Translations under genes and position numbers: made by a program
DNA from: Candidatus Methanoperedens sp.
GTDB taxonomy: Archaea > Halobacteriota > Methanosarcinia > Methanosarcinales > Methanoperedenaceae
Length of the DNA stretch: 36,673 nt
Direction of reading: 5' to 3'
NCBI GenBank assembly: GCA_028717345.1
Contig: JAQUNZ010000020.1
Coordinates: 1 to 36,673, forward strand
In this document: piece by piece, positions 4,665-30,411 of the stretch
How the letters are laid out: every line of letters starts with the position of its first letter
Position numbering within the stretch: the stretch's first letter is position 1
The notes under the pieces: model-generated
What the model saw: the letters and a program-made list of their open reading frames with translations, nothing else
Database searches by the model: none
Told to the model about the DNA's origin: nothing

Positions 4665-5083
4665 AAAATAAACTAGTTGCGATCTGGTTCTTCCTGCTTG
4701 TATTTACTGTGCCTGTACTGGCTGTTACCGAGGAAGAAATAACTTCAAACCTGAACTGCCCTGACCAGGGAGGATGTATCATGATAGTGGTTGATTGCAC
4801 CTGCCCTAGTTCGCTTGAAATAAAGGATAAGGTAAGGGCAATGCTTGACCAGGGTTTTTCTGAAAAAAAGATATATGATAAACTGACGGCAGAATATGGA
4901 AAAGAGGTTCTTGCAACGCCGCCCAAAGAAGGATTTGACTGGATAGTATGGCTTGCCCTGCCTGCCGGATTAATAGTGGGCGGTGTTGTGGTCTATAAGA
5001 TCAGCAGGAAGAGAATGGATGAGAACGAGGAATTTGAATTAGAATATGAAAAATTCTTGCAGGAGAGAGAAAAACATGAATAA
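4661..5083 (+). CDS. ccmH: CcmH-like thiol protein
   Basis: A 140-residue protein with signal peptide (MKNKLVAIWFFLLVFTVPVLA), a short helical domain and one C-terminal membrane helix (about residues 93-111), the layout of CcmH/CcmL. Instead of the bacterial LRCxxC motif it has C33, C39, C46 and C48 (LNCPDQGGC...DCTC), resembling archaeal CcmH variants with two cysteine clusters. It probably keeps apocytochrome CxxCH thiols reduced for CcmF. It overlaps ccmF by 4 bases and the next gene by 8. System I* of Desulfovibrio, which also uses Cys-type CcmE, is described as lacking CcmH, so its presence here is notable. Confidence 0.8.
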   Translation: MKNKLVAIWFFLLVFTVPVLAVTEEEITSNLNCPDQGGCIMIVVDCTCPSSLEIKDKVRAMLDQGFSEKKIYDKLTAEYGKEVLATPPKEGFDWIVWLALPAGLIVGGVVVYKISRKRMDENEEFELEYEKFLQEREKHE

Positions 5084-14128: not shown

Positions 14129-14968
14129 ATGAATGGGTTGATCGATTTCATAAACCGGAATTATATTGAAGGCATTGTCAATGATACCAGTTATAATCAT
14201 TTTGACATGATCACTTATGTCATCATTTTATTTGCAGGAGTATATGCGGTTCTAAAACTGTTGAATAAATTGAAAATAAAGATCGATGAGGAGTTCGTCA
14301 TCGCTACTATTCCTTATATTTTCATGGGTTCAGTATTCAGGGTAATCGAGGATGCGGATCTTCTGAAGCCTCCAGTCAAATATTTTTTCATTACGCCGAT
14401 TATTTTCTTTGTGATATTTACAATATGTTTCGGTATCCTTCTCCTGTCAAGATATCTTGAGAAGATACAGAAAATAAAAAACTATATCCATGCATATGCA
14501 ATTGCAGGCGTGGTATTATCGTTGGCTGGCGTTGCTATTCTCAGTTATTATAGCCACTCTAACTGGAATCTCAACATTCTTGTATACAGTCTTGTTCCAG
14601 CTATAGGATTGACCGAATTCGTCAGGAGAATATCTCCGGCGATCGGTATGACTTATCTTCGCAGCAGGATATATTCATTTGCGATATTTTCATTTCTTCT
14701 CGATTCGTTTACAACGTATATCGGCGTTGACATTATGGGCTATACAAACAAGCATCCTTTCAGTTCGTTCCTGGCTTCCATTTTTGGAACAGGGGTGGTG
14801 ATGATCCCATTATCTTTGATTTTAGTTATTCTGATAATCCTGTTGCTTGAGAAAGATTCAAAGAATGATAAGAATGAGGACGAAAAATATATGCTTACAT
14901 TGACGTTAATTGTTCTTGGTTTCTCGATGGGTGCAAGGAATTTGCTGGCGATGGTATTTGGAGTTTAG
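14129..14968 (+). CDS. DUF63 integral membrane protein
   Basis: A 279-residue protein with about eight helices and the family phrase YIFMGSVFRVIEDADLL (about 65-81), matching DUF63 (Pfam PF01889), a membrane family widespread in Euryarchaeota and without known function. It ends the plus-strand operon; its stop overlaps the stop of the convergent dtxR-like gene by 4 bases. Confidence 0.85.
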   Translation: MNGLIDFINRNYIEGIVNDTSYNHFDMITYVIILFAGVYAVLKLLNKLKIKIDEEFVIATIPYIFMGSVFRVIEDADLLKPPVKYFFITPIIFFVIFTICFGILLLSRYLEKIQKIKNYIHAYAIAGVVLSLAGVAILSYYSHSNWNLNILVYSLVPAIGLTEFVRRISPAIGMTYLRSRIYSFAIFSFLLDSFTTYIGVDIMGYTNKHPFSSFLASIFGTGVVMIPLSLILVILIILLLEKDSKNDKNEDEKYMLTLTLIVLGFSMGARNLLAMVFGV

Positions 14969-15642
14969 CCGGGGCGCTGATAGAAATCCGATTTTTGTAC
15001 TAATATCTTTTCGGTAAGTTCCTTTCCTAGTGATTTCTCTTCTCCATCCACCATGACCAGAATAGGTCCCCCGAAGGGAGCAATGTTTTTTATCTCAACC
15101 TCGACCTGAGGGTATAATCCAAGGCTCCCAAGATACTGCAGCATCTCAGAGTTCTCCTCAAAGACGCTTATAATAACTCCTTTTTCATTTGCTTTGAGTT
15201 CTGAAAGTTTTACAGTATTATCCTGGACTATAAATCCCTCTTTATCAGGTATCGGATAACCGTGCGGGCATGTTTTGGGATTGCCCAGTTTCTCTTCGAT
15301 TTTTTCCTCCATCTCAGGACTTATATCGTGTTCAAGCCTGCATGCCTCCTCATGTACTTTATCCCATTTAAAACCCAGAATATCCGTAAGCAGGCGCTCA
15401 GAGAGGCGATGTTTTCTTATCACTTTCTTTGCTTCAAGTTCACCTTCTTTTGTCAATACCACTCCTTTCTCAGCGTAGGTCACAAGTCCTTTCTGTTCAA
15501 GTTGCTTTAGCATCTCTGAAACGGATGAAGGGCTTAACTCCAGGCGTTCTGCCAATTTCGAGGTTGTGGCGGATTCATGTATCTCCTGTAATTTATATAT
15601 ATACTCTAAATATTCTTCTATCCTTGGGGATTCTTTTGTCAT
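14965..15642 (-). CDS. DtxR/MntR-family metal-dependent repressor
   Basis: A 225-residue regulator with N-terminal winged helix (residues 1-65; LSPSSVSEMLKQLEQKGLVTY), dimerisation/metal-binding domain with HEEACRLEHDIS (about 97-108) and CPHGYPIP (about 124-131), and a C-terminal FeoA/SH3-like domain (about 145-220). These are the usual Fe(II)/Mn(II)-sensing ligands. As the last gene of the iron-uptake operon it probably controls that operon and itself; a perfect TTAGGT-TT-ACCTAA box lies before FTR1. The start at 15642 lacks a clear Shine-Dalgarno sequence. Confidence 0.92.
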   Translation of the reverse strand: MTKESPRIEEYLEYIYKLQEIHESATTSKLAERLELSPSSVSEMLKQLEQKGLVTYAEKGVVLTKEGELEAKKVIRKHRLSERLLTDILGFKWDKVHEEACRLEHDISPEMEEKIEEKLGNPKTCPHGYPIPDKEGFIVQDNTVKLSELKANEKGVIISVFEENSEMLQYLGSLGLYPQVEVEIKNIAPFGGPILVMVDGEEKSLGKELTEKILVQKSDFYQRPG

Positions 15643-15669
15643 CTATGATTTCAGTAGGCTTCTTGATGA

Positions 15670-16311
15670 TTAATACTTTACTTCACCGTGGGATATTTGT
15701 ATTATCTTGTCCCCTATTTCGCCTATCTCAGGGTTGTGGGTTACAATCACTATTGTTCTCCCTTCGCTGTGGAGTTCCCTGAATATTTCAAGCACTGCTT
15801 CCTCGTTCTTTTTATCGAGGTTTCCTGTAGGCTCATCCGCTAATATTATCTGAGGCTGGTTGATAAGCGCACGTGCTATGCATACACGCTGCTGTTCCCC
15901 GCCAGAAAGCTGGGAGGGCATGTGATGCAGCCTGTGCTCCATGCCAACATGCACAAGTGCCTCTTTTGCTTCTTTCTCGTCCTCAATGCTGTGGAAGTAC
16001 TGCGCTATCATCACGTTCTCAATGGCGGTAAGATGAGGAATCATGTGGAACTGCTGGAAAACAAGACCAATGTTCTCCCGCCGAAAACGTGTTCTCTCCT
16101 TCTGGTTAAGCTTTGTTGTCTCAATTCCATTCACAATCAAAGAGCCGCTTGTTGGAGAATCAAGGCATCCTATCAGGTTCAAAAGCGTGGTTTTTCCACT
16201 CCCTGAAGGACCCATTATATTAGCCCATTCTCCTTTTTCAATAGTGAAACTGGCATCTTTCAATGCGCATGTAGTATCGTATTTTTTGACAAGATTTTTT
16301 GCTATTATCAT
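15670..16311 (-). CDS. ABC ATPase of the iron-uptake operon (FetD-like)
   Basis: A 213-residue ATPase with Walker A GPSGSGKTT, signature LSGGEQQRVCIARAL and Walker B IILADEPTGNLD, of the MacB/LolD class. The ATG at 16311 (MIIAKNLVKKYD) is chosen because AGGA lies upstream; an in-frame ATG at 16338 would add nine residues (MMRGIGLIK) derived from a repeat. It serves the two FtsX-type permeases upstream in the operon. In Campylobacter P19 and E. coli Fet loci, such an ATPase and permeases accompany FTR1; its exact role is not settled. Confidence 0.9.
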   Translation of the reverse strand: MIIAKNLVKKYDTTCALKDASFTIEKGEWANIMGPSGSGKTTLLNLIGCLDSPTSGSLIVNGIETTKLNQKERTRFRRENIGLVFQQFHMIPHLTAIENVMIAQYFHSIEDEKEAKEALVHVGMEHRLHHMPSQLSGGEQQRVCIARALINQPQIILADEPTGNLDKKNEEAVLEIFRELHSEGRTIVIVTHNPEIGEIGDKIIQISHGEVKY

Positions 16312-16340
16312 TTTTATCAGTCCTATTCCCCGCATCAATT

Positions 16341-16379
16341 CCCCGGAATTAATTCCGGGGTCTCACTTCCGGGGTCTCA
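16341..16379. repeat. Palindromic element with 13-base direct repeat
   Basis: A perfect 20-base palindrome, CCCCGGAATT and its complement (16341-16360), followed by a 13-base direct repeat TTCCGGGGTCTCA (16353-16365 and 16367-16379). It lies between the second permease and the ABC ATPase, and overlaps the permease stop codon. Closely related to the element at 18691-18710; probably a dispersed REP-like repeat. Confidence 0.75.
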
Positions 16380-17435
16380 TTCGCCTCTTAATATTACAAC
16401 CGGGTCGATTGAAATTGCACGCCTGATGGGCAGAAGGCTTGCGACAGTGGCGACCATTGTTGAGATTAAAAGGGTGAGAATGAACACTTCAGGCTTTATC
16501 GACACATTCATATCAAATATCTCCATTCCTATGAATTGCGAAAGTAAAAGCCCGATAAAATATCCAAGAATGCCGCCTGCTATACCCATTACCCCGGCTT
16601 CGGCAAGAAATATAGCTGCAAGCCTGCCATTTCCGCAGCCGAGTGCCTTCATAAGTCCTATTTCGCGGCTTCGCTCAAGTACACTTGTAATCATTGTGCT
16701 CAGGAGACTGAGACTTGCGGCCGAGAGAACAAAAAGAGATACGAGAGCCATTAAAAGCTGAGTTTTATCAAGAAGAGCTTTCTCGCTCTCAGCCACCTGC
16801 CGGATTTTCTTTACTTTATAGCCTTCATTCTCAAGATACCTGATTACTTTATCGATATCTCCAAGAACACTCAACTGTACCAATGTAGCCCCACTTTTGC
16901 CTGAAATCTGCTGGGCAGTTTTCATGGGGATGAAAATCCTGTTATCATCAGATGTGCCTGTATCCAGGATACCTGAGACTTTAAAGGATTTCTCCCCTAC
17001 GTTCAGGGGATCACCGATTTTAAGTCCCTGTTTGTTTGCAGCATTAATGCCTGGCAGTACCTCTTCCTGTTCAGGAAGTGCGCCTTCAATATGCCACCAG
17101 GGGTTCATTTTTCTTGCTGCTTCAAGGTCTGTCCCTGCAAATTCTATCTTTTTTGTGTTAACTTCTGCTTTGAAATAAAGAAAAGGGACAGAACCTATGA
17201 TGGAACTATGCGTGGCATTGAACTGGTTGATATATTCTCCTTCACCTGGAAGGACAACCAGATTGGCTCCATAGCTTCGAAGTTCCTGTCCCATCTTTTC
17301 CCTTATATCCAGAGAGATGGTTAGCAGGGAAGTCACCATGGCAGCGCCAAGCATTACTGCAATTACAGATATCAACAACCGCTCTCTTCTTACCCGGAGT
17401 GATTTTGTTACCAGGCGTGCGAACAATTTAATCAC
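16377..17435 (-). CDS. FtsX/MacB-family permease 2 of the iron-uptake operon
   Basis: A 352-residue permease with an N-terminal helix (RERLLISVIAVMLGAAMVTSLLTISLDI), an extracytoplasmic MacB-type domain (about 45-220), and three C-terminal helices with REIGLMKALGCGNGRLAAIFLAEAGVMGIAGG and final PIRRAISIDPVVILRGE. It shares the SYGAN motif (EKMGQELRSYGANLVVLPG) with its neighbour, so the two form a heterodimeric permease. It overlaps the upstream permease gene by 8 bases. Confidence 0.9.
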   Translation of the reverse strand: MIKLFARLVTKSLRVRRERLLISVIAVMLGAAMVTSLLTISLDIREKMGQELRSYGANLVVLPGEGEYINQFNATHSSIIGSVPFLYFKAEVNTKKIEFAGTDLEAARKMNPWWHIEGALPEQEEVLPGINAANKQGLKIGDPLNVGEKSFKVSGILDTGTSDDNRIFIPMKTAQQISGKSGATLVQLSVLGDIDKVIRYLENEGYKVKKIRQVAESEKALLDKTQLLMALVSLFVLSAASLSLLSTMITSVLERSREIGLMKALGCGNGRLAAIFLAEAGVMGIAGGILGYFIGLLLSQFIGMEIFDMNVSIKPEVFILTLLISTMVATVASLLPIRRAISIDPVVILRGE

Positions 17436-18675
17436 CCCTGAGTATGACGGATGGTTCTATTTCAACAGCCTTTTTCACAGGCATCATGCTTCCAAGAAGA
17501 GCGACTGCCAGCGATAGTATCCCTGAAATCAATACAGGGAAAAGTGAGGGGTTTATGATAGCGCCGAATACCCACATGCCTACTATTCTTGCCAGTACAA
17601 TACCAATAAGAATTCCAATTGCCCCGCCTATGATGCCCGTAACAGCCGCCTCGGCAAAGAAAAGCCCGGCGATTTGATATCCATCAGCGCCAATCGCTTT
17701 CATCAACCCGATCTCTTTTTTCCTCTCGAAAATCGAGGTGGTCATGGCTGCACTCACCCCAAGTGAGGCTGAGGTCATGGCTATACCCGTGATCAAAAAC
17801 ATAAGCCATTCAAATTTATTGAGCAGCTTTCCCTCATTGTCAGCCACCTGGCGAATGGGCTTGGCATTTGCATCAATCACTTCTTCAATCTGGAACATTA
17901 TGGAAGAAATATACGGCGTGCAGTACCAGATTTCATACTCACCGGGAGGAAGCAGGAATGGGTCTATCTTCTCTTGCGGCTCAGGCTTGGTCAGTGCGCT
18001 AACCACCACCCGGTCAACCATGCCCTGCTTCCCGAAAAGCATCTGTGCATCCTTGAGAGATACTATCACCTGCCCATCCTCATCCCCGCCAGTGGAGAGA
18101 ATGCCTGAGACTTTGAAAGTTGCATTTTTACTGCCGAACTCTGCACTGAAAATATCTCCTCGCTTCAGGTCTGATTTTTCAGCAGTATTGACACCAACCA
18201 GAGCTTCCCCCAGTGCAGGCCATTCTCCATCCACCTTCCACCAGGGCGCTATTGTCTTTACCCCTGTCCTGATAGTTGCCTCTTTCTCATCCGCTTTCCT
18301 GTTCCCGATAAATGTCCTGTGAACTCCCGGTATCCTTATTTCCTCGTCTAAATAAGTGCCGCTCAGCACTATTTCCGTGTCTTTTATCGTTACAGTATCA
18401 CTGAGATAGGGGGAATATCCTATTATGTTGTGCCTCCAGAAGATGGTCTTCATTTTGTAGAGTTCACTCTCGTTTATGAAAGCGCCTTCGGATGAAGGCT
18501 GCAAAAGAATGTTTGCGCCGTAGCTTTTTAACTCCCGTCCCATTTTATCATTGATATCAAATGATACTGTAAGAAGGGTTGAGGCTATGGACGCGCCCAT
18601 TACTACAGCAAGTACTGCCAGGGCTATCCTGAGCTTTCTTCGTTGAATTGCTGAAAAGAGCAGGCGAGAGAACAT
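17428..18675 (-). CDS. FtsX/MacB-family permease 1 of the iron-uptake operon
   Basis: A 415-residue permease with the same layout as its neighbour: N-terminal helix (about 14-36), large extracytoplasmic domain (about 45-285), and three C-terminal helices with KEIGLMKAIGADGYQIAGLFFAEAAVTGIIGG and VEIEPSVILRGD. The extracytoplasmic part is longer than in permease 2 and includes a Pro-rich loop near residues 230-250. It starts 3 bases after the FTR1 stop. Fet/P19-type loci of bacteria also have two such permeases. Confidence 0.9.
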   Translation of the reverse strand: MFSRLLFSAIQRRKLRIALAVLAVVMGASIASTLLTVSFDINDKMGRELKSYGANILLQPSSEGAFINESELYKMKTIFWRHNIIGYSPYLSDTVTIKDTEIVLSGTYLDEEIRIPGVHRTFIGNRKADEKEATIRTGVKTIAPWWKVDGEWPALGEALVGVNTAEKSDLKRGDIFSAEFGSKNATFKVSGILSTGGDEDGQVIVSLKDAQMLFGKQGMVDRVVVSALTKPEPQEKIDPFLLPPGEYEIWYCTPYISSIMFQIEEVIDANAKPIRQVADNEGKLLNKFEWLMFLITGIAMTSASLGVSAAMTTSIFERKKEIGLMKAIGADGYQIAGLFFAEAAVTGIIGGAIGILIGIVLARIVGMWVFGAIINPSLFPVLISGILSLAVALLGSMMPVKKAVEIEPSVILRGD

Positions 18676-18678
18676 AGG

Positions 18679-20007
18679 TTATTCCCTATTCCCCCGAATT
18701 AATTCGGGGGTCTTTACGGGGTCTTTGAACAGGTCTGCCCTTTCTCCAACATCATCCGTTTTTATCACGATCTCATCGCCAGCGACTGTATATTTAAGCG
18801 GTATGGGATTGCACCCTCCCGCCTCGCCTATAGTATCAGGGTTAATAGGTGCTCCGCACCGCTTGCATATGAGTTGCTCCCCCTCCTGTACATACCCTGC
18901 AGCGCCGCACAGAGCGCAGGCATCATAAGCTACGGCAACACTTCCGTCACTTCTGGTAATCGCAAGAATTCTGGCACTGGCTTTACCATCGCTGCCGTGC
19001 ATAGGGCAGTTTGCTGGCATGTTCTGCATGTCGCAAACATATTTGTGCAAATTCCCATCAGCAGCACTAGCTGCTTGAATCCTTACCTCATTTCCGGTTA
19101 TACTCGCTTTTTCAGGCTTGGGATCTACGCCCTGCGGCAATGCCGATATCTGGACGCTCACGAAAGTAAGTATTAAAAACACAGCTATTGCGCCTATTGT
19201 AATTTTTCTGTTTCTCTCTTTACGGATTGCTCCAAGAGCTTTTCTTTTTTCAATGCCTTCAATACCCTCAGTGTTAATCTGCTTCCATGGCACCATTATG
19301 AACAAAAGCACAAGGAAACCAAGCATTATTCCTGTGAATACAATGGAGGCAGGCTCCTTCACCAGAGGACCTATTATACTCATCCCGGTCTGGTTCAGGT
19401 TTATGATGCCCACTTCTGACCACTCATGAATGCCTCCCACGATTAACTGGAAGATTATTACGGCAAGCATCACACCTGTTATCTTGAAGAATCTTCCGAG
19501 ATTCATTCTCAGGCTGCCTTTGATGAACAGGTAACCAAAAAGCACAGCCAGCGCCAGACCTGCGATCCCCTCAAGCACAGTAGCAGCGCTTGCTTCCTTT
19601 GCTGTTGCAGACAGGAACAATACTATTTCTGCGCCTTCCCTGTATATCATGAAAAACGTGAGCGCCAGGACTCCGAGCGCCTGCCATTTATCAAGGGCGC
19701 TTTCAATGCCCTGCTCTACATCCTGCCTGATGTTTTTCGAAGTTCGGTGCATCCATACCAGCATTGTACCCAGGAAGAATGCTGCAATAAAGAACATCAA
19801 ACCCTCCATAAACTCGCTCCATTCTGCCAGGAGCATCTGGATTGCTATGGCGGTTGCGATGCTTCCTGCTACAGCCGCAATTATCCCGGCATATACATAT
19901 TTTTTCAGCGCCTGTTTACTGGTCTTGCCAAGGTATGCAAGTATTATACCAATTACAAGCGCTGCTTCTATTCCTTCTCTTAGAGTAATTGTCAGTGTTT
20001 CAAACAT
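18679..20007 (-). CDS. FTR1 iron permease fused to DUF2318 metal-binding domain
   Basis: A 442-residue protein. The N-terminal half (about 1-250) is a seven-helix FTR1/EfeU iron permease with both R-E-G-x-E motifs (LREGIEAAL and YREGAEIVL). The C-terminal third (about 300-430) is a DUF2318 domain with CDMQNMPANCPMHG, ACALCGAAG and CKRCGAPIN cysteine pairs. In bacterial Fet/P19 loci these are usually separate proteins. The start at 20007 follows AGGTGA; the in-frame ATG at 20037 lies beyond the DtxR box and is rejected. The last residues (TPELIRGNRE) are encoded by a palindromic repeat. It should move iron into the cell, with the fused domain perhaps handling iron redox state. Confidence 0.9.
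   Translation of the reverse strand: MFETLTITLREGIEAALVIGIILAYLGKTSKQALKKYVYAGIIAAVAGSIATAIAIQMLLAEWSEFMEGLMFFIAAFFLGTMLVWMHRTSKNIRQDVEQGIESALDKWQALGVLALTFFMIYREGAEIVLFLSATAKEASAATVLEGIAGLALAVLFGYLFIKGSLRMNLGRFFKITGVMLAVIIFQLIVGGIHEWSEVGIINLNQTGMSIIGPLVKEPASIVFTGIMLGFLVLLFIMVPWKQINTEGIEGIEKRKALGAIRKERNRKITIGAIAVFLILTFVSVQISALPQGVDPKPEKASITGNEVRIQAASAADGNLHKYVCDMQNMPANCPMHGSDGKASARILAITRSDGSVAVAYDACALCGAAGYVQEGEQLICKRCGAPINPDTIGEAGGCNPIPLKYTVAGDEIVIKTDDVGERADLFKDPVKTPELIRGNRE
18691..18710. repeat. Perfect 20-base palindrome within the FTR1 C-terminus
   Basis: CCCCCGAATT followed by its exact complement. Flanking GACCCC/GGGGTC and the AAT-AGGG tail resemble those of the 16341 element, marking both as copies of one dispersed repeat. 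This copy supplies the last codons of the FTR1 gene. Confidence 0.75.
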
Positions 20008-20020
20008 GATTTTCACCTTA

Positions 20021-20034
20021 TTAGGTTTACCTAA
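20021..20034. promoter_or_regulatory. DtxR-type iron box before FTR1
   Basis: TTAGGT-TT-ACCTAA, a perfect inverted repeat resembling half-sites of IdeR/DtxR boxes, 14 bases upstream of the FTR1 ATG. A TATA-like element (minus-strand TTTAATAA, near 20057-20064) would place the transcription start on or next to the box. A weaker copy, TTCGGT-TA-TCCTAA, lies at 20067-20080. Its likely ligand is the DtxR protein at the end of the same operon. Confidence 0.7.
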
Positions 20035-20205
20035 CATTTTATAATGTATTAGTAGTTATTAAATATTTCGGTTATCCTAATATTATATTTCTTATATCCT
20101 TAATATTAGAAAACTTTGGATAGGTGTAAAAAATTAGGTCAGTCTTCAAGAACGAAATCCTTTTTCTTGAATTAAAATTCTTTTCAGTAAGATTCATATA
20201 TTAGT

Positions 20206-20270: not shown

Positions 20271-20330
20271 ATGATGGGCACTGAGATACCAGCAGATTTG
20301 ACTAATCTTTATGCACCCCATTTTGTATGA
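20271..20330 (+). CDS. Possible 19-residue leader ORF coupled to ferredoxin
   Basis: ATG at 20271 follows GGAGG at a good distance (8-9 bases) and reads MMGTEIPADLTNLYAPHFV, ending in a TGA that overlaps the ferredoxin ATG. Another tiny frame (20218-20274, MNMKEKTIALMVKEEFLL) overlaps it likewise. The GGAGG is the only good ribosome site before ferredoxin, so it may serve translation through coupling. Coding status uncertain. Confidence 0.3.
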   Translation: MMGTEIPADLTNLYAPHFV

Positions 20331-20518
20331 CAAAATCTTTCATCCGTGCGGAAAAATGTCTTTATTGCGCTGAGTGCCTCGCTGCAAAGGCATGCCAAAG
20401 CAAGGCAATATTCAGGCTGGATGCAAAAGAACCTGCAATCATCGAATCACGTTCCTGTCATGGCTGCTGTATGTGTATTGAGGTATGTAAGGGCGGCGCA
20501 ATAATAGCATTACTTTGA
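20327..20518 (+). CDS. Two-cluster 4Fe-4S ferredoxin-like protein
   Basis: A 63-residue protein with two cysteine sets: CLYCAECLAAKAC (last spacing five residues) and CHGCCMCIEVC (standard C-x2-C-x2-C-x3-C, plus one extra Cys). These should bind two [4Fe-4S] clusters for low-potential electron transfer. No own ribosome site is seen; its ATG overlaps the TGA of the small frame at 20271. A candidate ArsR operator lies about 100 bases upstream. It could supply electrons to the double-cubane protein's activase downstream, by inference from position and shared operator. Confidence 0.75.
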   Translation: MTKSFIRAEKCLYCAECLAAKACQSKAIFRLDAKEPAIIESRSCHGCCMCIEVCKGGAIIALL

Positions 20519-20602
20519 GGAGATCGAAATGATAGAGGTGGATTCGTTATAACCGTAAATGTGAAGGAATAATATAAAGTAAGGAAAGATTCATATATAC
20601 GA

Positions 20603-20622
20603 ATATTCATAATTTAGAATAT
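20603..20622. promoter_or_regulatory. Inverted repeat ATATTCA-N6-AGAATAT before the SHOCT gene
   Basis: Second copy of the 20206 repeat, one mismatch from perfect, with the same six-base spacing and the same upstream AAGATTCATATAT. It lies about 37 bases before the SHOCT gene, which heads the ArsR cluster, as expected for autoregulation. Confidence 0.65.
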
Positions 20623-20658: not shown

Positions 20659-20958
20659 ATGAGCAATAAAGATTCAACGTTGTGGATACTCATCGCACTG
20701 CTTGTGGTAGTAATCCTGTTATTTTCCGGAGGCGGAATGATGGGCTTCGGCATGGGCTCTGGCATGTTTTTCGGAGCTATCATAATGGTATTATTCTGGG
20801 GGGCAATAATCTGGCTTGTCATTTCACTTATAAACGCCGGAACACAAAGATCAGAAGAAACATCTGAGTCCGCGCTTGCTATCCTGAAAAAGAGATACGC
20901 CAGGGGCGAATTAACAAAAGAGCAGTACCTTGAGATGGAAAAGGAGCTGACGGGGTAA
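20659..20958 (+). CDS. SHOCT-domain membrane protein
   Basis: A 99-residue protein with two membrane helices (about 8-24 and 33-60) separated by a Gly/Met-rich loop (GGGMMGFGMGSGMFFG), and a C-terminal SHOCT motif (SALAILKKRYARGELTKEQYLEMEKEL). SHOCT proteins are common next to metal-stress and membrane genes and their role is unclear. GAGGTG lies about 9 bases before the ATG. It starts the operon 21 bases upstream of ArsR. Confidence 0.85.
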   Translation: MSNKDSTLWILIALLVVVILLFSGGGMMGFGMGSGMFFGAIIMVLFWGAIIWLVISLINAGTQRSEETSESALAILKKRYARGELTKEQYLEMEKELTG

Positions 20959-20979: not shown

Positions 20980-21300
20980 ATGGACAAGAAAATCTTTGAA
21001 ATGCATGCAGAGATATGTAAGGTCTTTACAAACCCCAAAAGACTGGAAATAATAAGCCTTCTCAGGGATGGAGAGAAAACAGTCAACGAGCTGACCGAAC
21101 TGGCCGGCGTGCCGCAGGCAAACGTCTCGCAGCATCTCACAGTCCTGAGGCAGAATAACGTTGTTACCACAAGAAGGAATGGAGCAAATATTTATTACAA
21201 GATCGCGAATCAGAAAATTTTGCAGGCATGCGATTTGATGAGGGAAGTTCTTTTGGAAAAATTATCAGAGAATGAAAAGTTAGCAAGGAGGATGTTATGA
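20980..21300 (+). CDS. ArsR-family regulator
   Basis: A 106-residue winged-helix protein: VFTNPKRLEIISLLRDGEKTVNELTELAGVPQANVSQHLTVLRQNNVVTTRRNGANIYYKI is a textbook ArsR/SmtB fold. It lacks the classic ELCVCDL metal motif; cysteines are at C13 and near residue 86, so the inducer may be a thiol, sulfur species or redox state rather than arsenite. Inverted repeats at 20206 and 20603 are candidate targets. The stop overlaps the DsrE-like ATG (ATGA). Confidence 0.9.
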   Translation: MDKKIFEMHAEICKVFTNPKRLEIISLLRDGEKTVNELTELAGVPQANVSQHLTVLRQNNVVTTRRNGANIYYKIANQKILQACDLMREVLLEKLSENEKLARRML

Positions 21301-21620
21301 AGTTTGGAATAATAATAAACACAAACGATCCGGAAACGGTGTGGAACGCCTTTAGATTTGGTGTTACATCTTTACTTATGGAGCATACAGTAAAAGTTTT
21401 CCTCCTGGGTAAAGGTGTGGAGAGTGAAAATATTCAGGACAAAAAATTCAATGTTCAGGAACAGATAGGGCTGTTTGCAGAGCATAAAGGTCAGATTTTT
21501 GCATGCGGAAGCTGCTTGAAAATAAGGCAGATGAAGGGGAGTGAGGTTTGCCCTATCTCTACTATGCATGATATGCTCCATATAGTCGAAGAGTCTGACA
21601 GGGTTTTAGTATTTGGTTAA
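21297..21620 (+). CDS. DsrE/DsrF-like protein
   Basis: A 107-residue protein: MKFGIIINTNDPETVWNAFRFGVTSLLMEHTVKVFLLGKGVE fits the DsrE/DsrF-like Rossmann-type fold. FACGSCLKIR (Cys pair near residues 65-68) is the position of the persulfide-carrying cysteine in this family. It probably carries sulfur, passing it to or from the OsmC-like protein downstream. Overlaps arsR by 4 bases. Confidence 0.85.
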   Translation: MKFGIIINTNDPETVWNAFRFGVTSLLMEHTVKVFLLGKGVESENIQDKKFNVQEQIGLFAEHKGQIFACGSCLKIRQMKGSEVCPISTMHDMLHIVEESDRVLVFG

Positions 21621-21654
21621 AGGTAAAAAAGTAAAAACGAAAGAAGGTGAAAAA

Positions 21655-22182
21655 ATGATAGTAAATAGAGTAGATGTAGATAAATTCAGGGAAACAGTTG
21701 AAAACGCAAGAAAAAACCCTTCCACCGGCAAGAAAACAATGGAAATTGAAGGTGAATGGAGGATAGGCAAAACAGGACCCCAGTTTGAATCAAAGATAAA
21801 AACAGAAAAGGGAGGAGAGATAACCCTTCTATCCGATGAGACACTGATCCTGGGTGGCGGTGGCACAGCCCCTAACCCTGTGCAGTACTGTATCTACGGC
21901 TTAATTGCCTGCTACGCAGCAACATTCGCAAAATGGGCTGCAATGGAGGGAATCGTACTTAAAAGCTTTAAGATAAAGGCTACTTCGAATATGGATCTGA
22001 CAGGGGCTTTTGGAGTAACACAGAACCCCATCTTAGAACACCTGAAATGGGAGATGATTGTGGACTCGGATGCAAGCATGGAAAAACTGAATAAATTGAA
22101 TGAAATCGCAAAGGAGAGATGCCCCGGCTACTACTGCGTAACGCACGAGATTTTCCCTGAGATCAAAATAATAAAGCAATAA
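21655..22182 (+). CDS. OsmC-family protein
   Basis: A 175-residue protein with the OsmC/Ohr pattern: GGGGTAPNPVQYCIYGLIACYAATFAKWAAMEGI, where the two cysteines of the central helix match those that reduce peroxides in Ohr/OsmC, and a C-terminal CPGYYCVTHEI. The start at 21655 has AGGTGA upstream; the ATG at 21613 overlaps the previous gene and lacks one. OsmC-like proteins next to DsrE or TusA are often proposed in sulfur relay instead of peroxide defence, and the context favours that. Confidence 0.85.
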   Translation: MIVNRVDVDKFRETVENARKNPSTGKKTMEIEGEWRIGKTGPQFESKIKTEKGGEITLLSDETLILGGGGTAPNPVQYCIYGLIACYAATFAKWAAMEGIVLKSFKIKATSNMDLTGAFGVTQNPILEHLKWEMIVDSDASMEKLNKLNEIAKERCPGYYCVTHEIFPEIKIIKQ

Positions 22183-22185
22183 CCA

Positions 22186-22515
22186 ATGAATGACCAGATC
22201 GATGAAATAAGGACAGAGATTGAGCGAGAAAAAACCGCGAGGGACATACTTGGGATAGATTATAATGCGGATGAAATTGAAATAAAGAAGAAATACTGGC
22301 TGCTGGCGATGGAAACCCACCCCGATCTTAATCCATATGATAAAGAAAGAGAGAACAGGTTCAGAATTATAAGTGAAGCATATGAATATCTTACTACACG
22401 GAAATGTGGAAGTCGCTATACCTTTTTCAGGAATGGAACTGTAAAATATAAGGATTCTGTGATTATCTATAATGAAGCAGGTTACTTAAAATGGTGGAAG
22501 ATGGCATTTTTCTAA
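22186..22515 (+). CDS. J-domain protein
   Basis: A 109-residue protein with an N-terminal J-domain (about 15-70): ARDILGIDYNADEIEIKKKYWLLAMETHPDLNPYDKERENRFRIISEAYEYL, including the HPD motif needed to stimulate Hsp70. It has none of the Gly/Phe, zinc or C-terminal domains of DnaJ. It overlaps the double-cubane gene by 25 bases, suggesting it helps Hsp70-assisted assembly of that iron-sulfur enzyme, analogous to HscB; this is inference. Confidence 0.85.
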   Translation: MNDQIDEIRTEIEREKTARDILGIDYNADEIEIKKKYWLLAMETHPDLNPYDKERENRFRIISEAYEYLTTRKCGSRYTFFRNGTVKYKDSVIIYNEAGYLKWWKMAFF

Positions 22516-23645
22516 AGAGCTTGGACCTTTTCAAGGAAGCTTTTCCCGGAAGGATAAACCAAATACTCAAGAGTAAAGAAGAGGGAAAAAAGATAATAGG
22601 AACGCTCTGCCTTTATGTCCCGGACGAACTTATCTATGCGTGTGGCGCAGACCGTGTAATATTATGCGGCGGAAGAAGTGCCACCATTGCGGCAGCGGAG
22701 GAATATTTACCAAGAAATCTCTGTCCTCTGATCAAATCCTCCTTCGGCTCTGTAATTGACCAGAAATGCAGTAAGACTAAATCCTGTCCTCATTTTGGTC
22801 TGGTTGACCTCATAGTTGCAGAGGCTACATGCGATGGGAAAAAGAAGATGTATGAACTTATGGACAAATATATCCCAACCTATGTCATGGATCTTCCGCA
22901 GAAGCCTGAAAATCAGAACGCACAGGAGTACTATATAAAAGAACTTGAAAGCTTAAAAGACGTTCTGGAAAAGCTGACCGGCAATAAAATTACAGACGCT
23001 CAACTCAGGAATGAAATAAAGTCTGCAAATGAGACAAGAAAACTGCTCCATGCTATCTATGAGTTAAGGAAAATAGACTCTCCGCCAATCAGGGGAACAG
23101 AAATGCTAAAAGTTCTTCAGCAGATGCATTTTCTGTCACCCGGCGAGTTCAGAAAGAATCTTGTTTTACTGCTCGATGAGCTAAAATTAAAGAAAAGGGA
23201 GAATTCCGGGCCGAGGATTATGATATCAGGCTGCCCGATGGCAGCAGGAAACATGAAGGTTCCGGAAATTATAGAGAATCGGGGCGGTTTGATCGTGGCA
23301 GAGGAAAGCTGTACCGGCACAAGAGCCTTCTGGGATTTGGTGGATGAGAAAAAGGAACCAATGAAAGCCATAGCTGAGAGATATCTTAAAATCCCCTGTG
23401 CCTGCATGTATCCAAATGAAAGGAGAATCAATCAGATACTAAAGCTTGCCGGGGATTTCAATGTTGACGGGGTTGTTTATTATACCCTTCAGTTCTGCCA
23501 CGGATACAATGTCGAGAAATACAGGGTTGGGGAAGCTTTGAAAAAGTCAGGCATTCCTCTCCTATCTATAGAAACAGACTACAGCGGGGCTGACACCGAG
23601 CAGATAAAGACACGAGTGGATGCCTTTCTGGAGATGCTGGAATGA
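22491..23645 (+). CDS. Double-cubane-cluster / 2-hydroxyacyl-CoA dehydratase-family protein
   Basis: A 384-residue protein of the HgdB/BcrB family: IIGTLCLYVPDELIYACGA, RNLCPLIKSSFGSVIDQKC, DLIVAEATCDGKKKMYE, ISGCPMAAGN, VAEESCTGTRAFWD, LKIPCACMYPNERR and LQFCHGYNVEKYRVGEAL. As a single-subunit gene followed by its own activase, it resembles double-cubane cluster proteins (DCCP), which hold an [8Fe-9S] double cluster and do ATP-driven low-potential reductions; natural substrates are mostly unknown. The two-subunit dehydratases have a second paralogue, absent here. Overlaps its neighbours on both sides, so stoichiometric expression is likely. Confidence 0.87.
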   Translation: MVEDGIFLKSLDLFKEAFPGRINQILKSKEEGKKIIGTLCLYVPDELIYACGADRVILCGGRSATIAAAEEYLPRNLCPLIKSSFGSVIDQKCSKTKSCPHFGLVDLIVAEATCDGKKKMYELMDKYIPTYVMDLPQKPENQNAQEYYIKELESLKDVLEKLTGNKITDAQLRNEIKSANETRKLLHAIYELRKIDSPPIRGTEMLKVLQQMHFLSPGEFRKNLVLLLDELKLKKRENSGPRIMISGCPMAAGNMKVPEIIENRGGLIVAEESCTGTRAFWDLVDEKKEPMKAIAERYLKIPCACMYPNERRINQILKLAGDFNVDGVVYYTLQFCHGYNVEKYRVGEALKKSGIPLLSIETDYSGADTEQIKTRVDAFLEMLE

Positions 23646-24397
23646 TATCTATTGGAATTGATGCCGGGGCTGCGACTACCAAGGCAGTTGTGCTTCGTGA
23701 TAATGAAATCGCAGGATACACCATTATACCTACTGGTTTCGATTTTAGAAAAGCGGGGGAGAAAGCCTTTGAGGAAGTACTCTCAAATTGCGGCATAAGC
23801 GAGAGCAAGGTTGGAACAATTCTGGCTACAGGATATGGCAGAAACAGTATTGGATTTGCTGATAAAACTATCAGTGAGATAACAGCCCATGCCAGAGGTG
23901 TCGGCTATCTTATCCCGGCAGCCCACACGATAATCGACATCGGCGGTCAGGATAGCAAAGTGATCAGCACTGAAAATGGTAAAGTTGTGGACTTTCTGAT
24001 GAATGACAGATGTGCGGCAGGAACTGGTAAGTTCCTGGAATATACAGCAAAAGCTCTTGAAATATCGCTGGATGAACTGGGAACGCTTGCACTGGTCTCA
24101 AAAAATCCGGCAAATATCAGCAGTATGTGTACCGTATTTGCGGAATCTGAAGTTATCAGCCTGAGGGCACAAAAGACTAAAAAAGAAGACATAGCTGCCG
24201 GCCTTATTGAAAGTATTATCCTTAGAACTACTGCAATGGTTAAAAAGCTGGGAATAAAACCCGAAGTGGCTTTTGTGGGTGGAGTAGCCAAAAATCCTGG
24301 AGTAGTAAAGGCTTTTGAAAAGGCATTAGATATCGCGGTACTATTGCCAGAAGAACCCCAGATAACAGGTGCCTTGGGAGCTGCATTGCTTGTTTGA
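23642..24397 (+). CDS. Activase of the BadF/BadG/HgdC ATPase family
   Basis: A 251-residue ASKHA-fold ATPase: IGIDAGAATTKAVVL (phosphate 1), TIIDIGGQDSKVI (phosphate 2), FVGGVAKNPGV, and the two cluster-binding cysteines of NDRCAAGTGKFLE and SSMCTVFAESEV that hold one [4Fe-4S] cluster between two subunits. It hydrolyses ATP to drive single electrons from a ferredoxin into the double-cubane partner. It overlaps that gene by 4 bases (ATGA). It ends the operon and is followed by a hairpin. Confidence 0.93.
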   Translation: MISIGIDAGAATTKAVVLRDNEIAGYTIIPTGFDFRKAGEKAFEEVLSNCGISESKVGTILATGYGRNSIGFADKTISEITAHARGVGYLIPAAHTIIDIGGQDSKVISTENGKVVDFLMNDRCAAGTGKFLEYTAKALEISLDELGTLALVSKNPANISSMCTVFAESEVISLRAQKTKKEDIAAGLIESIILRTTAMVKKLGIKPEVAFVGGVAKNPGVVKAFEKALDIAVLLPEEPQITGALGAALLV

Positions 24398-24452: not shown

Positions 24453-25844
24453 TCATTCAGCGCAGCAGCTCATCTTACTGACATCCTTCCTGAATGATTG
24501 CGCGACCAGTTTTACTGCTTCTGTCATAGTCGGAAAAACATGGACAGTATCTATGATATCATCAATGGTCATGCCATATTTTACAGCAAGCACTCCTTCA
24601 TGAATCATTTCCGCCGCCAGCGATGCCAGTATATGCACGCCGAGTATGCGCTCTGTTTCTGCATCGATCACCATTTTTACAAGTCCCCGTGTATCCTTTG
24701 CCAGCACTGCTCTTGGGACAAGTTCCATCGGGATTGTACTGCATCTGCATATTATGCCTTTTTCTTCTGCCTTCTTTTCTGTCAGACCGACACTCGCCAC
24801 TTGCGGCATGGTGAATACGGCATGGGGCACTGCCGAAAAGTCCATCTTTTTCCCTTTACCTGCCAGGGCGTTTTCAGCCGCAATTGAGCCTTCTTTGCCT
24901 GCCACAGTTTCAAGCATGGGTTCGCCGATAACATCGCCTGCCGCCCAGATATCAGGCGATGTGGTTTTCATTTCTTCATCCACGATCACTGCACCATTTT
25001 CATCGATCTTAACACCTGCTTTTTCCAGACCCAGATCCGTTGTATTGGGCTTCCTGCCTGTTGCCATCAGCAGTTTTTCAGCCCTGAATTCTCTTTTTTC
25101 TTCTCCAAAAAGCGCAGTTATTACGATATTACCGTTCTCTTTCCTGGCACTTCTCACGCCTGCCCCGGTTTGGATATTTATGCCTTCTTCTTCAAGATAG
25201 GCTTTGAGATACTCTGAGATTATGCTTTCCTCCTCAGGTATTATCCTGGGACTTCTCTGGAGCACGGTTACTTTTGTCCCGAAATGAGCGAACATCTGTG
25301 CAAATTCCAGACCAATAGCTCTTCCACCCAGAACTATCATCGATTCGGGGAGTTCAGGTAACTCCATAGCCTCTACGTTGGTCAGGTAATCTACACTGCC
25401 TATACTTTCTATTGGAGGGATATGTGAGGAAGAACCGGTTGCTATTACGAACTTACCGGCATGTAGAGTCCTGCCGTTCACCTTTACTTCGTTTTTGGAA
25501 TCAAAAACAGCCTGCCCTCTTACCAGAGTTATCCCTAAAGCATCGATCACATCGATGTACCTGCCCTTCCTCAACCCTTCTACAATCTCTCTTTTCTCGT
25601 TTATTGTGCCAGCGAAGTCAAGGGAAGAGGTAACGTCCAATCCGGTGTGACCATGATTCTTATAATAGTTGATTTCCCCGACCCTGAGCAGGTGCTTGCT
25701 TGGCACGCAGCCAACGTTAACGCAGGTGCCGCCTATTGTGCCTTTCTCGATCATCGCTACTTTTGCTCCCAGATCAACTGCTTTTATCGCAGCCCCGAAA
25801 GCAGCAGAGCCGCTGCCCAGGATTATTATATCATATCTCTCCAT
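24453..25844 (-). CDS. merA: Mercuric reductase-type flavoprotein disulfide reductase
   Basis: A 463-residue flavoprotein with FAD-binding GSGSAAFGAAIKA, active-site disulfide GGTCVNVGCVPSK (C41, C46), NAD(P)H-binding IVLGGRAIGLEFAQMF, the second FAD motif TTSPDIWAAGDV, and C-terminal vicinal cysteines C460-C461 (SKMSCCAE). The C-terminal pair distinguishes MerA, which passes Hg(II) to the active site, from dihydrolipoamide dehydrogenase. It lacks the N-terminal heavy-metal domain present in many bacterial MerA. It reduces Hg(II) to Hg(0) with NAD(P)H in the cytoplasm. AGGT precedes the ATG; a DsrE-like gene lies 9 bases upstream. No MerB, MerT or MerR is present. Confidence 0.88.
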   Translation of the reverse strand: MERYDIIILGSGSAAFGAAIKAVDLGAKVAMIEKGTIGGTCVNVGCVPSKHLLRVGEINYYKNHGHTGLDVTSSLDFAGTINEKREIVEGLRKGRYIDVIDALGITLVRGQAVFDSKNEVKVNGRTLHAGKFVIATGSSSHIPPIESIGSVDYLTNVEAMELPELPESMIVLGGRAIGLEFAQMFAHFGTKVTVLQRSPRIIPEEESIISEYLKAYLEEEGINIQTGAGVRSARKENGNIVITALFGEEKREFRAEKLLMATGRKPNTTDLGLEKAGVKIDENGAVIVDEEMKTTSPDIWAAGDVIGEPMLETVAGKEGSIAAENALAGKGKKMDFSAVPHAVFTMPQVASVGLTEKKAEEKGIICRCSTIPMELVPRAVLAKDTRGLVKMVIDAETERILGVHILASLAAEMIHEGVLAVKYGMTIDDIIDTVHVFPTMTEAVKLVAQSFRKDVSKMSCCAE

Positions 25845-25853
25845 ATTACATAC

Positions 25854-26210
25854 CTAAAATGTAATTATCTGGTAACCCTGTGATATAAGTTTCCTGAAGC
25901 TCGGATGTTCCTCATATTCTCCCATGAGAGGAATGCTGGATTCCATTGCACTCTCTTTGATACCAAAAGCCCCGGCACAAAAGCTGCAGACTCCTGTTGA
26001 TTTACCCTTTAATGAATCGAACAATTCGTGAAACATATGGTCCGGTTTTGAAAGTTCTTTTATCCATTTGGTTCCAGCCCCGTCAAATATAAGCTTAAAA
26101 TCATCGTTTACATCTTTGAACTCCTTTGCAGCCAGAAGTGCGTTATGAACTCTGGCGATATCCTCATGAGTTTCTGTATCTGCCAAAACTATGATTGCTA
26201 CCTTTATCAT
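25854..26210 (-). CDS. DsrE-family protein
   Basis: A 118-residue protein, MIKVAIIVLADTETHEDIARVHNALLAAKEFK..., of the DsrE-like fold, with the thiol position occupied by GVCSFCAGAFG (C-x2-C, about residues 74-77). AGGTGAT lies upstream. It is 9 bases upstream of merA and co-transcribed. A role as a sulfur or metal-thiol carrier for MerA is inferred from position. Confidence 0.8.
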   Translation of the reverse strand: MIKVAIIVLADTETHEDIARVHNALLAAKEFKDVNDDFKLIFDGAGTKWIKELSKPDHMFHELFDSLKGKSTGVCSFCAGAFGIKESAMESSIPLMGEYEEHPSFRKLISQGYQIITF

Positions 26211-28296: not shown

Positions 28297-30411
28297 TCAC
28301 CTCAATTTCATGTGTATATCTGTAAGCGTCCATCTCTCATACCACGGCTTAGATTTTAAGATTTCGTCTATGTTTTTTCCAAGCTTTTCTGCATAATTTC
28401 CCGCTCTATGAATGTATTGATATGACATTCCAAGGAAACCTTTAACTTCATGCTTCTCGGCTTCCTGCAAAGCCTCTTTGAGACCTGTCTCGTACGCAGG
28501 CATGAATTTCGGAAGCTCCCATGAAATATCGATACCTGCTTTAGCTGCATAATTTATTGCATTTTCTATATACACATGCATTCCATAAATTTGCCCTTCT
28601 GATGCATATCTTTCCGCTTCTTTAAGCAATTCATAGATTCCTATTTCGTATGCCGGCTTTAGCATTTCAAGCCCAATGCTGATATCTTTGTTGAGTTTTG
28701 CAGCAGTCTCTTTTGCTTTTGACACATAAAAGTCAACATCGGACAAAACATTCAGATCTGCGCACTGCTGCGCTCTCTTAAGATATCTTTCCAGGTCGTT
28801 ATTCCTGTCTTGCAGAGTCTTTTCCCTGTCTGGTTTTTCTTCGATTTTAATTTCCTCAAGCACCGAACCGGCATCGCCCATCGCTGTTATTTTGCCAAGC
28901 TTCATGTGCGCAGTGCGGTCACAAACGTTCCTGACAAATTCCATGTCGTGAGAAACTATAACAAATGTCGTCCCCGTCTCTTTTCTTGCTGTCAGGATTG
29001 AGTTTGCAACCTCGTTCTTTGTGATCTGGTCCATCGTTCCTGTTGGTTCGTCGAAAATAATAATCCCCGGTTCTCTTATGAGAACCTGCGCCATTGTCAC
29101 CCTCTGACGTTCTCCCACGCTGAGTTCGTACTGGGTCTTCTCCAGAATCTCACGTGCTGTATTTTCATCAAAGCCCACTGCTTTCAATGCAGCTATCGCT
29201 TTTGTTCCTGCGAGTTCAGGCTCAAGTTTTAAACCTATCGAATCGGTCAGGTTAGATAATACATTCCTGTGAGGGTAAAGTGAATATTCCTGATGCAAGT
29301 AACCAATATGCGGTTTTGCGCGTCCCCTGAAATCTGTGCCTTTTTCGGTCATATCAACCCACATATCCCCGATCCTCACATCCACTTTCCCGCTGTCTCT
29401 CTCCATAATCCCTGCTATGATCTTAGAGAGTGTTGTTTTACCCGCTCCGCTTATGCCCAGTATACCGAAGATCTCTCCTTCGCTGGCTTCGAAGCTCACG
29501 CCATTTACGGCAGGGATCATACCTTTAGAATACGAGTAATATTTCTTCTTTAAATCTTTAATAATAATGATCGGCTCACCGACAACTGCTTTGCCATCAT
29601 TCACCACTCCGGTCATTGCAGAGAACTTTTCAATAATTTCATCAGGTTTTCCTATTTCGATAATTTCTCCTTTATCTAAAAGAATCGCTTTGTTTGTCAG
29701 GTCATGTAAAACGCCAGGCAGATGCGAAGTAACAAGCATTGTCATGTTGTGTTCCTGTTTTGCTTTTAATATGCTCTCATGCACAAGCTTTGCAGTTCTT
29801 GGATCAAGCGTTCCGGTCGGTTCGTCCGCAAGTAAGAGCATCGGGTATTTTGCAAGCTGTCGTGCAAGAACTACACGCTGTTTCTCTCCACCGCTGAGTT
29901 CTTTTCCTGTGTATGTCATTCTGTGGCTGAGCTTCACTTTTTCTATCATTTCTACTGCAACGTAGGGGCGTTTCTCCCTGGGTATCTCGGAATATTCAAA
30001 GCTGTGCATGATATTTTCAATGATCGTTTCATCGCCATATATACCGAAAGTCCGCTGCATCATGATAGCGGTCCTGTCCATGATTTTCCTGTGCATGCCT
30101 TTTGAATTTAGATAGTCGATTCTTTGCAGTTCAGTTTTTGTCCCGCATTTTGAACAGGCAGTGCCTGAGCTGCCTGGAGTATCTATCCTGTTGCATTTTG
30201 GACAGATGGATATATTAAAGATTACCTCGCCCTTAATATCTTCAAATTCCTCAAAGCCGCGGAGCAAATGCAGAAGTGTACTCTTTCCTGCTCCGCTTTT
30301 CCCGATTATACCGATGCTTTCGCCTTCGTTTATGTCAAGATTTATATTCTTGAGGATATGTTTGCCGCCAACATTGATGTTCAAATCCCGTATCTCGATT
30401 AAAGCTGCCAT
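28297..30411 (-). CDS. atwA: Methyl-coenzyme M reductase component A2 (AtwA) homologue with C-terminal repeats
   Basis: A 704-residue protein with two ABC ATPase domains. Domain 1: Walker A GKSGAGKST (37-45), a zinc insert CPKCNR...CSKCG, LSGGEKQRV, LLLADEPTGTLD. Domain 2 (about 275-520): GISGAGKTT, LSVGERQRV, IIIFDEPTGTMD. No membrane segment. This is the AtwA layout; AtwA supports ATP-dependent activation of methyl-CoM reductase. Canonical AtwA ends after domain 2 (about 530 residues); here three tandem 52-residue helical repeats follow (540-591, 592-643, 644-695). AGGAGGAG precedes the ATG, inside the ArsR gene end. Operon with ArsR, zinc ribbon and CopZ-like, so it may be a specialised paralogue. 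Confidence 0.88.
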   Translation of the reverse strand: MAALIEIRDLNINVGGKHILKNINLDINEGESIGIIGKSGAGKSTLLHLLRGFEEFEDIKGEVIFNISICPKCNRIDTPGSSGTACSKCGTKTELQRIDYLNSKGMHRKIMDRTAIMMQRTFGIYGDETIIENIMHSFEYSEIPREKRPYVAVEMIEKVKLSHRMTYTGKELSGGEKQRVVLARQLAKYPMLLLADEPTGTLDPRTAKLVHESILKAKQEHNMTMLVTSHLPGVLHDLTNKAILLDKGEIIEIGKPDEIIEKFSAMTGVVNDGKAVVGEPIIIIKDLKKKYYSYSKGMIPAVNGVSFEASEGEIFGILGISGAGKTTLSKIIAGIMERDSGKVDVRIGDMWVDMTEKGTDFRGRAKPHIGYLHQEYSLYPHRNVLSNLTDSIGLKLEPELAGTKAIAALKAVGFDENTAREILEKTQYELSVGERQRVTMAQVLIREPGIIIFDEPTGTMDQITKNEVANSILTARKETGTTFVIVSHDMEFVRNVCDRTAHMKLGKITAMGDAGSVLEEIKIEEKPDREKTLQDRNNDLERYLKRAQQCADLNVLSDVDFYVSKAKETAAKLNKDISIGLEMLKPAYEIGIYELLKEAERYASEGQIYGMHVYIENAINYAAKAGIDISWELPKFMPAYETGLKEALQEAEKHEVKGFLGMSYQYIHRAGNYAEKLGKNIDEILKSKPWYERWTLTDIHMKLR

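Follow-up and report, generated by a model that had tools for sequence, protein, structure and literature searches.

Background

Double-cubane cluster proteins (DCCPs) have been described as archetypes of the benzoyl-coenzyme A (CoA) reductase/dehydratase family, whose member BzdN carries the same type of [8Fe-9S] cluster, and their biological function is stated as unknown (PMC11971306). The reduction of acetylene, hydrazine and azide are the only activities that have been measured for a DCCP, and the authors deemed their physiological relevance unclear (PMC11971306). In bacteria, a dehydratase and its activase beside YedF, SelA and SelB have already been tabulated (PMC5322559, Table 1), and a DCCP is found in the selenium-linked mlp clusters (PMC10418091, Fig. 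5). In this study I describe an archaeal operon with a DCCP in a stretch of 36,673 nucleotides (hereafter the window) from Candidatus Methanoperedens sp. (assembly GCA_028717345.1, contig JAQUNZ010000020.1, positions 1 to 36,673, forward strand), in which six genes at 20980-24397 encode an ArsR-type regulator, a DsrE-family, an OsmC-family and a J-domain protein, the DCCP and its activase.

Like the DCCP/DCCP reductase of Carboxydothermus hydrogenoformans (6eno, 7yyl), the window has an HGD-D protein with an adjacent activase, six aligned cluster-type cysteines and no second CoA-dehydratase subunit; unlike it, the window DCCP sits in an ArsR-DsrE-OsmC operon with an operator of its own. With the bacterial selenium clusters (PMC5322559; mlp clusters, PMC10418091) the window shares a DCCP-activase pair that neighbours a DsrE-domain carrier bearing a CGxC motif, whereas it lacks a TusA-DsrE fusion, the genus lacks an above-cut-off SelD (31 genomes), and the archaeal cassettes have OsmC, ArsR, SHOCT and DUF5714 genes instead. 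The DsrE fold with its conserved cysteines recalls the DsrEFH/TusBCD sulfur-relay proteins, but the window has a single DsrE gene with neither an F nor an H partner and no adjacent Dsr genes. Similarly, the regulator combines the ArsR fold with two cysteines, as do the sulfide- or persulfide-responsive BigR, SqrR and YgaV, although its cysteines do not lie at the positions of those in BigR. The initial annotation of this DNA, which was made from the sequence alone, knew of no described pathway with such a composition, and searches of the open literature (DUF5714; OsmC/DsrE with a dehydratase; Methanoperedens with OsmC) found none either. The archaeal ArsR/DsrE/OsmC context of the DCCP and its regulon appear to be new; the DCCP and the selenium link were already known.

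Results

From its gene content, protein families, conserved cysteines, gene order and dedicated conserved operator, I tentatively read the unit as an autoregulated chalcogen-handling stress operon of Methanoperedens to which an ATP-driven double-cubane reductase has been added. All six genes lie on the + strand and are placed in their families by Pfam and NCBIfam models (Table 1). The successive junctions from ArsR to the activase measure -4, +34, +3, -25 and -4 nt, with overlaps at three of the five, which agrees with the initial description of six genes in one direction, mostly overlapping. The OsmC gene is likely to start at ATG 21655, rather than at TTG 21613. The operon extends 5' of the start noted initially and includes a gene for a small SHOCT-domain membrane protein, which ends 21 nt before the ArsR gene and holds the equal position in most related cassettes, as well as a palindromic operator-like site.

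The possibility that this gene order is unique to the contig, which had been named as a refutation of the initial annotation, was addressed by a search for conserved neighbourhoods. Nine DCCP copies with 90-93% protein identity are present in 7 of the 31 Methanoperedens genomes, two of which have two copies each; all nine reading frames are open, and ArsR and DsrE precede the DCCP in every copy, the DsrE being truncated in one (L001). A DUF5714 gene is part of the same cassette for all DCCP copies except that of the window, whose DUF5714 sits on another contig. The gene order is thus not restricted to this contig. Its repetition around the DCCP copies of these seven genomes, together with the exact copies of the operator, is more than chance. 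The stable part of the cassette is ArsR-DsrE, usually with SHOCT, OsmC and DUF5714; the DCCP-activase pair is an optional module, and the J-domain and NifX-fold genes are optional accessories. In locus L177, for example, the core lacks a DCCP and is arranged OsmC, NifX-fold, J-domain. Among 393 genomes of the phylum, DCCP and DUF5714 co-occur above chance (13/28, Fisher 7e-6), a value that is inflated by genome relatedness. The window ArsR gene is 92% identical at the DNA level to those of cassettes without a DCCP and 82-84% to those of DCCP cassettes, and the window DCCP gene shares 88-92% identity with the remaining DCCP copies; the parts therefore have different histories, and no direction of transfer is claimed, since trees of such short proteins are weakly supported.

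The palindrome at 20589-20611 was found through an alignment of upstream regions. Among the 31 Methanoperedens genomes, 15 have exact matches, 16 sites in total, all before the SHOCT/DUF5714/ArsR core, the number of sites expected from base composition being about 5e-5. Allowing up to three mismatches, the palindrome is present in 17 of these genomes, with every site again before the core; at the site in genome G011 the contig stops before ArsR, and the site in G001 (3 mismatches) precedes a SHOCT-methyltransferase-ArsR arrangement without DsrE. The backwards pattern, used as a control, gives 0-1 matches per genome. The initial annotation had placed the cluster under an ArsR repressor, and this assignment gains from a winged helix-turn-helix model above its cut-off together with a conserved palindrome before the protein's own operon, the two marks of an ArsR/SmtB repressor. 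The palindrome marks a regulon of a single operon, which is the pattern for an ArsR repressor under its own control that would bind there.

The window ArsR has two cysteines only, C13 and C84, and these are present in 18/18 and 17/18 cassette ArsRs, respectively. Canonical As/Cd/Zn-sensing ArsR proteins have a Cys-rich alpha-3 CxC motif or a His-rich alpha-5 His/Asp site, and both are absent from the window ArsR sequence. BigR is the top PDB match of the protein, which reaches 62 bits with the BigR model (cut-off 155). Two conserved cysteines in an ArsR without the As/Cd/Zn motifs are compatible with a persulfide or soft-metal switch.

The initial identification of a DCCP with its activase is supported by a full-length match above cut-off to the DCCP equivalog model NF040772 and by an above-cut-off match to the activase model TIGR00241. 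The closest solved structures to the DCCP are the DCCP entries 7yyl and 6eno (2e-90), before BzdN and HadC. Cysteines 40, 59, 78, 114, 274, 303 and 336 are invariant among 115 homologs, and six of them (C40, C78, C114, C274, C303 and C336) line up with the BzdN/DCCP cysteines, which by homology makes them the putative ligands of an [8Fe-9S] cluster. The two cluster cysteines of the adjacent activase, C124 and C163, are invariant in 103/103 sequences, and its PDB relatives are 4eht, 1hux and 7yyl_E. It had also been asked whether the DCCP could be a subunit of a normal CoA dehydratase encoded elsewhere. The equivalog models of 2-hydroxyacyl-CoA dehydratases and benzoyl-CoA reductases all score far below cut-off, the pair of HGD-D subunits with substrate-specific enzymes that would denote a CoA dehydratase was not found, and the window genome (2.54 Mb, 96% complete) yielded no second HGD-D protein, save a 38% match over 77 amino acids. 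With only one convincing HGD-D protein in the genome, the DCCP is therefore not a lost CoA dehydratase subunit as far as this assembly shows. Control genomes of Escherichia coli and Methanocaldococcus also match the DCCP model, and DCCPs are widespread.

The DsrE protein has a C70-G-S-C73 motif and C85; C70 and C85 are found in 15/15 relatives and C73 in 14/15. Its PDB matches to polyubiquitin were set aside as chance. It consists of a DsrE domain alone and is not a YedF, which is a TusA-DsrE fusion with a CGxC motif. In the OsmC protein, Cys86 and Cys156 are conserved in 15/15 relatives; the nearest NCBIfam model is NF041052 (OsmC-related (seleno)protein), with 61 bits below a cut-off of 95, and the Ohr/OsmC hydroperoxide reductase models give 17-20 bits, far below their cut-offs. 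As both cysteines are present, the protein may still have a peroxidase-like activity.

The J-domain protein, whose HPD motif is found in 3/3 relatives, was initially taken for a dedicated chaperone for cluster assembly, and this part of the annotation did not hold up. The protein has no domain beyond the J domain that would mark an HscB-like Fe-S co-chaperone, and its gene is absent or broken beside 8/9 DCCP copies. In L006 it is truncated and fused to a NifX-fold remnant, and in most other copies the DCCP frame opens with a few codons that look like the 5' end of the J gene, the kind of trace expected from a deletion. It also occurs without a DCCP in one further genome (L177); a supposed DCCP 5' remnant behind this L177 gene is not evidence, as the match stops with the J-domain reading frame. 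As the gene is dispensable, the claim of an own chaperone is weak, and the J-domain protein was rejected as an essential part of the unit.

Outside the genus, a related OsmC adjoins the DCCP in Methanomicrobiales (L189, L190, L208-L210), and a C_GCAxxG_C_C redox protein lies either between the two or in their vicinity. In Methanosarcinaceae L205, a DsrE gene with 79% identity to that of the window comes after the DCCP-activase pair and converges on it. About 18 DCCP loci from bacteria and one Lokiarchaeon lie near SelA/SelB, SelD-like or YedF genes according to sequence clustering, of which one example each of SelA, SelB, SelD and YedF is above its model cut-off; this fits the bacterial neighbourhoods tabulated before (PMC5322559; PMC10418091). 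The theme of sulfur carriers in the initial annotation is thereby supported in spirit: carrier genes recur beside DCCPs in other archaea, and selenium or sulfur genes do so in bacteria. None of the 31 Methanoperedens genomes has a SelD above cut-off; like most control genomes, they give weaker signals only. Selenoprotein synthesis was therefore rejected for the window organism, and sulfur is likelier here.

Several of these loci have further neighbours. In L189, L190 and L209, tungsten/molybdenum formylmethanofuran dehydrogenase-like genes come after the OsmC/DCCP set. In Methanoperedens G005 (L113, G005:C57, 409-10088), a different DCCP (48%) with an activase lies near TusA and a TusA-DUF5714 fusion; this locus also holds an anaerobic CO dehydrogenase and two sulfonate-type ABC transporter sets, a binding protein of which weakly matches SaoX.

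The Methanoperedens cassettes themselves vary in content. A NifX-fold protein (PF02579), which might bind an 8Fe cluster, is encoded behind OsmC in L177 (8653-8979) and L179 (7229-7576), with a remnant in L006 (6209-6300), and is absent from the window. Between SHOCT and ArsR (or DUF5714), a PEMT/ICMT-type membrane protein, possibly an S- or Se-methyltransferase, is inserted in L184 (10186-10806), L302 (5798-6418), L303 (1367-1987), L304 (5366-5986), L005 and L006, and some cassettes contain an inserted gene for a NapH-like Fe-S membrane protein. DUF5714 was considered as a relative of the C_GCAxxG_C_C proteins and rejected (profile comparison probability 1%); no PDB entry matches its predicted structure (pLDDT 74) at an E value below 0.5.

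Just 5' of the operator, the window encodes a small ferredoxin-like protein, a possible electron donor. The linkage of its gene to the cassette is inconsistently conserved, with a homolog near a cassette only in G029. The MerA-type reductase gene that converges on the operon was rejected as a cassette member: elsewhere it lies away from the cassette and pairs with a gene like the component-A2 paralog of the window, whose canonical A2 is on a separate contig. This paralog is within a few kb of a MerA-type gene in at least six further genomes of the genus (G024, G010, G027, G001, G007 and G004), and MerA remnants stand beside it in others. A second, distinct DsrE-family protein is encoded at 25854-26210 (-), directly 5' of the MerA-type gene. 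A block at 14965-20037 (-), which precedes the operon, resembles iron transport: it contains MacB-type ABC transporter genes and encodes a DtxR-FeoA-type regulator and an FTR1/EfeU-like permease whose C-terminal domain is Cys-rich. Farther off, a PEMT/ICMT-type membrane domain fused to a class-I methyltransferase domain (11603-13030, +) weakly resembles methanethiol S-methyltransferase MddA and ArsM models, and the cytochrome c maturation genes CcmF and CcmH (2667-5083, +) fit a cytochrome-rich archaeon.

Table 1. Features of the operon and its surroundings in the window; bit scores are given with the cut-off of the model.
Feature	Coordinates	Strand	Evidence and remarks
Small ferredoxin-like protein	20327..20518	+	Fer4-type matches below curated cut-offs; just 5' of operator
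ArsR/SmtB-type operator-like palindrome ATTCATATATACGAATATTCATA	20589..20611	.	AT-rich; ~48 nt 5' of SHOCT gene
Small membrane protein with SHOCT domain; first operon gene	20659..20958	+	PF09851 28.7 bits, cut-off 27
ArsR/SmtB-family repressor (putative)	20980..21300	+	HTH_5 3e-15; NF033788 85 bits, cut-off 55
DsrE-family putative sulfur carrier	21297..21620	+	PF02635 1e-12
OsmC-family protein, 175-aa type	21655..22182	+	PF02566 4e-15
J-domain protein, type III (J domain only)	22186..22515	+	PF00226 1e-15; HPD motif intact
Double-cubane cluster protein (DCCP)	22491..23645	+	HGD-D 1e-122; NF040772 479 bits, cut-off 350
ATP-dependent activase / DCCP reductase	23642..24397	+	TIGR00241 306 bits, cut-off 125
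MerA-type reductase	24453-25844	-	590 bits, cut-off 454
704-aa component-A2 paralog of the methyl-coenzyme M reductase (MCR) activation system	28297-30411	-	TIGR03269 720 bits, cut-off 517; C-terminal extension

Discussion

In the scheme that I propose, ArsR would bind the palindrome and release it once Cys13/Cys84 are modified by reactive sulfur species or a soft metal(loid), while DsrE (with its CGSC motif) and OsmC would accept sulfane sulfur (or selenium) and hand it on as protein persulfides. A ferredoxin would reduce the activase, which would spend ATP to charge the [8Fe-9S] cluster of a DCCP homodimer with electrons. The DCCP, in turn, would reduce or reductively cleave a small substrate, which either bears the chalcogen that DsrE and OsmC handle or sets it free. 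I infer the use of ATP and ferredoxin, the carrying of persulfides and the action of the repressor from the protein families; the inducer and the substrate are guesses. That the electrons are ATP-driven suggests a substrate that is hard to reduce, and not a simple polysulfide.

A number of observations weigh against this scheme, and I hold the reading of the unit as a chalcogen-handling stress operon with somewhat less than even confidence. Polysulfide can be reduced without ATP-driven electrons, which leaves a substrate that is harder to reduce or an indirect link, and with no above-cut-off SelD in the genus the selenium context of the bacterial clusters is not directly transferable. Most core cassettes have no DCCP, the core without it being present in at least nine further genomes; the DCCP is optional and the carriers therefore do not need it. 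Beside several DCCP copies the OsmC or J-domain genes are deleted or truncated, OsmC being intact beside only 5/9 copies and the J-domain gene beside 1/9, that of the window.

The optional presence of the DCCP would also suit a general small-molecule reductase and detoxifier of acetylene, azide, hydrazine or similar small unsaturated or N-N toxicants, with the thiol-protein genes merely co-induced by that stress. The genus Methanoperedens is associated with nitrogen-oxide chemistry. The sole measured DCCP activities are of this kind, but their physiological relevance was called unclear in the same work (PMC11971306), and the recurrent pairing with DsrE, OsmC, TusA or YedF in several lineages would be left unexplained; I consider such a detoxifier unlikely. 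Several features could point to a resistance island for soft metals and metalloids: the regulator belongs to the ArsR family, a MerA-type gene converges on the operon, several cassettes have heavy-metal ATPase or NikR-like genes on their 5' side, and class-I or PEMT-type methyltransferases lie within or adjoining the operon. ArsR would then be a sensor of Hg, Cu or As, and DsrE, OsmC and DCCP would detoxify together with the neighbouring MerA, CopA-type ATPases and methyltransferases. However, MerA stands apart from the cassette in almost every other genome, paired with the A2-like ABC protein, and ArsR has neither the Cys-rich alpha-3 motif nor the His-rich alpha-5 site, which makes such an island rather improbable.

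The patchy distribution, the second copy found in some genomes, the many internal deletions and the differing histories of the window ArsR and DCCP would be expected of a mobile, decaying cassette, with the DCCP-activase pair as a passenger that is functionally uncoupled from the carriers. Yet the position behind this regulator is shared by all nine copies, whose DCCP frames are open, and other families have independent neighbourhoods of DCCP with OsmC and with DsrE, so that a passenger seems quite improbable to me. The window organism depends on MCR, and the ATP-driven electrons could help to reactivate this enzyme during sulfur or oxidative stress. The window encodes a second component-A2 paralog, A2-like genes are near three DCCP cassettes, some cassettes contain NifX-fold genes, and MCR activation is itself ATP-driven and uses nitrogenase-like 8Fe clusters (PMC12176620). 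However, the solved MCR activation complex has no HGD-D or activase subunit (PMC12176620), the DCCP is present in just 7/31 genomes of the genus though all need MCR, and DCCPs are common in bacteria without MCR; I regard such a role as very improbable.

Returning to the chalcogen-handling stress operon, the reading can be extended to the whole family: DCCPs would be ATP-driven chalcogen (sulfur or selenium) reductases that load or unload carriers of the DsrE, TusA or OsmC type, and the archaeal operon, with an ArsR regulon to itself, would be the sulfur-side version. I consider this extension doubtful, but if true it would give the enzyme class its first physiological role. The operon described here pairs a DCCP with sulfur carriers independently of the bacterial selenium clusters and so directs the search for its substrate to sulfur/selenium chemistry; being small and self-regulated, it also makes the role of the enzyme testable through two handles, the inducer of ArsR and the carrier partner.

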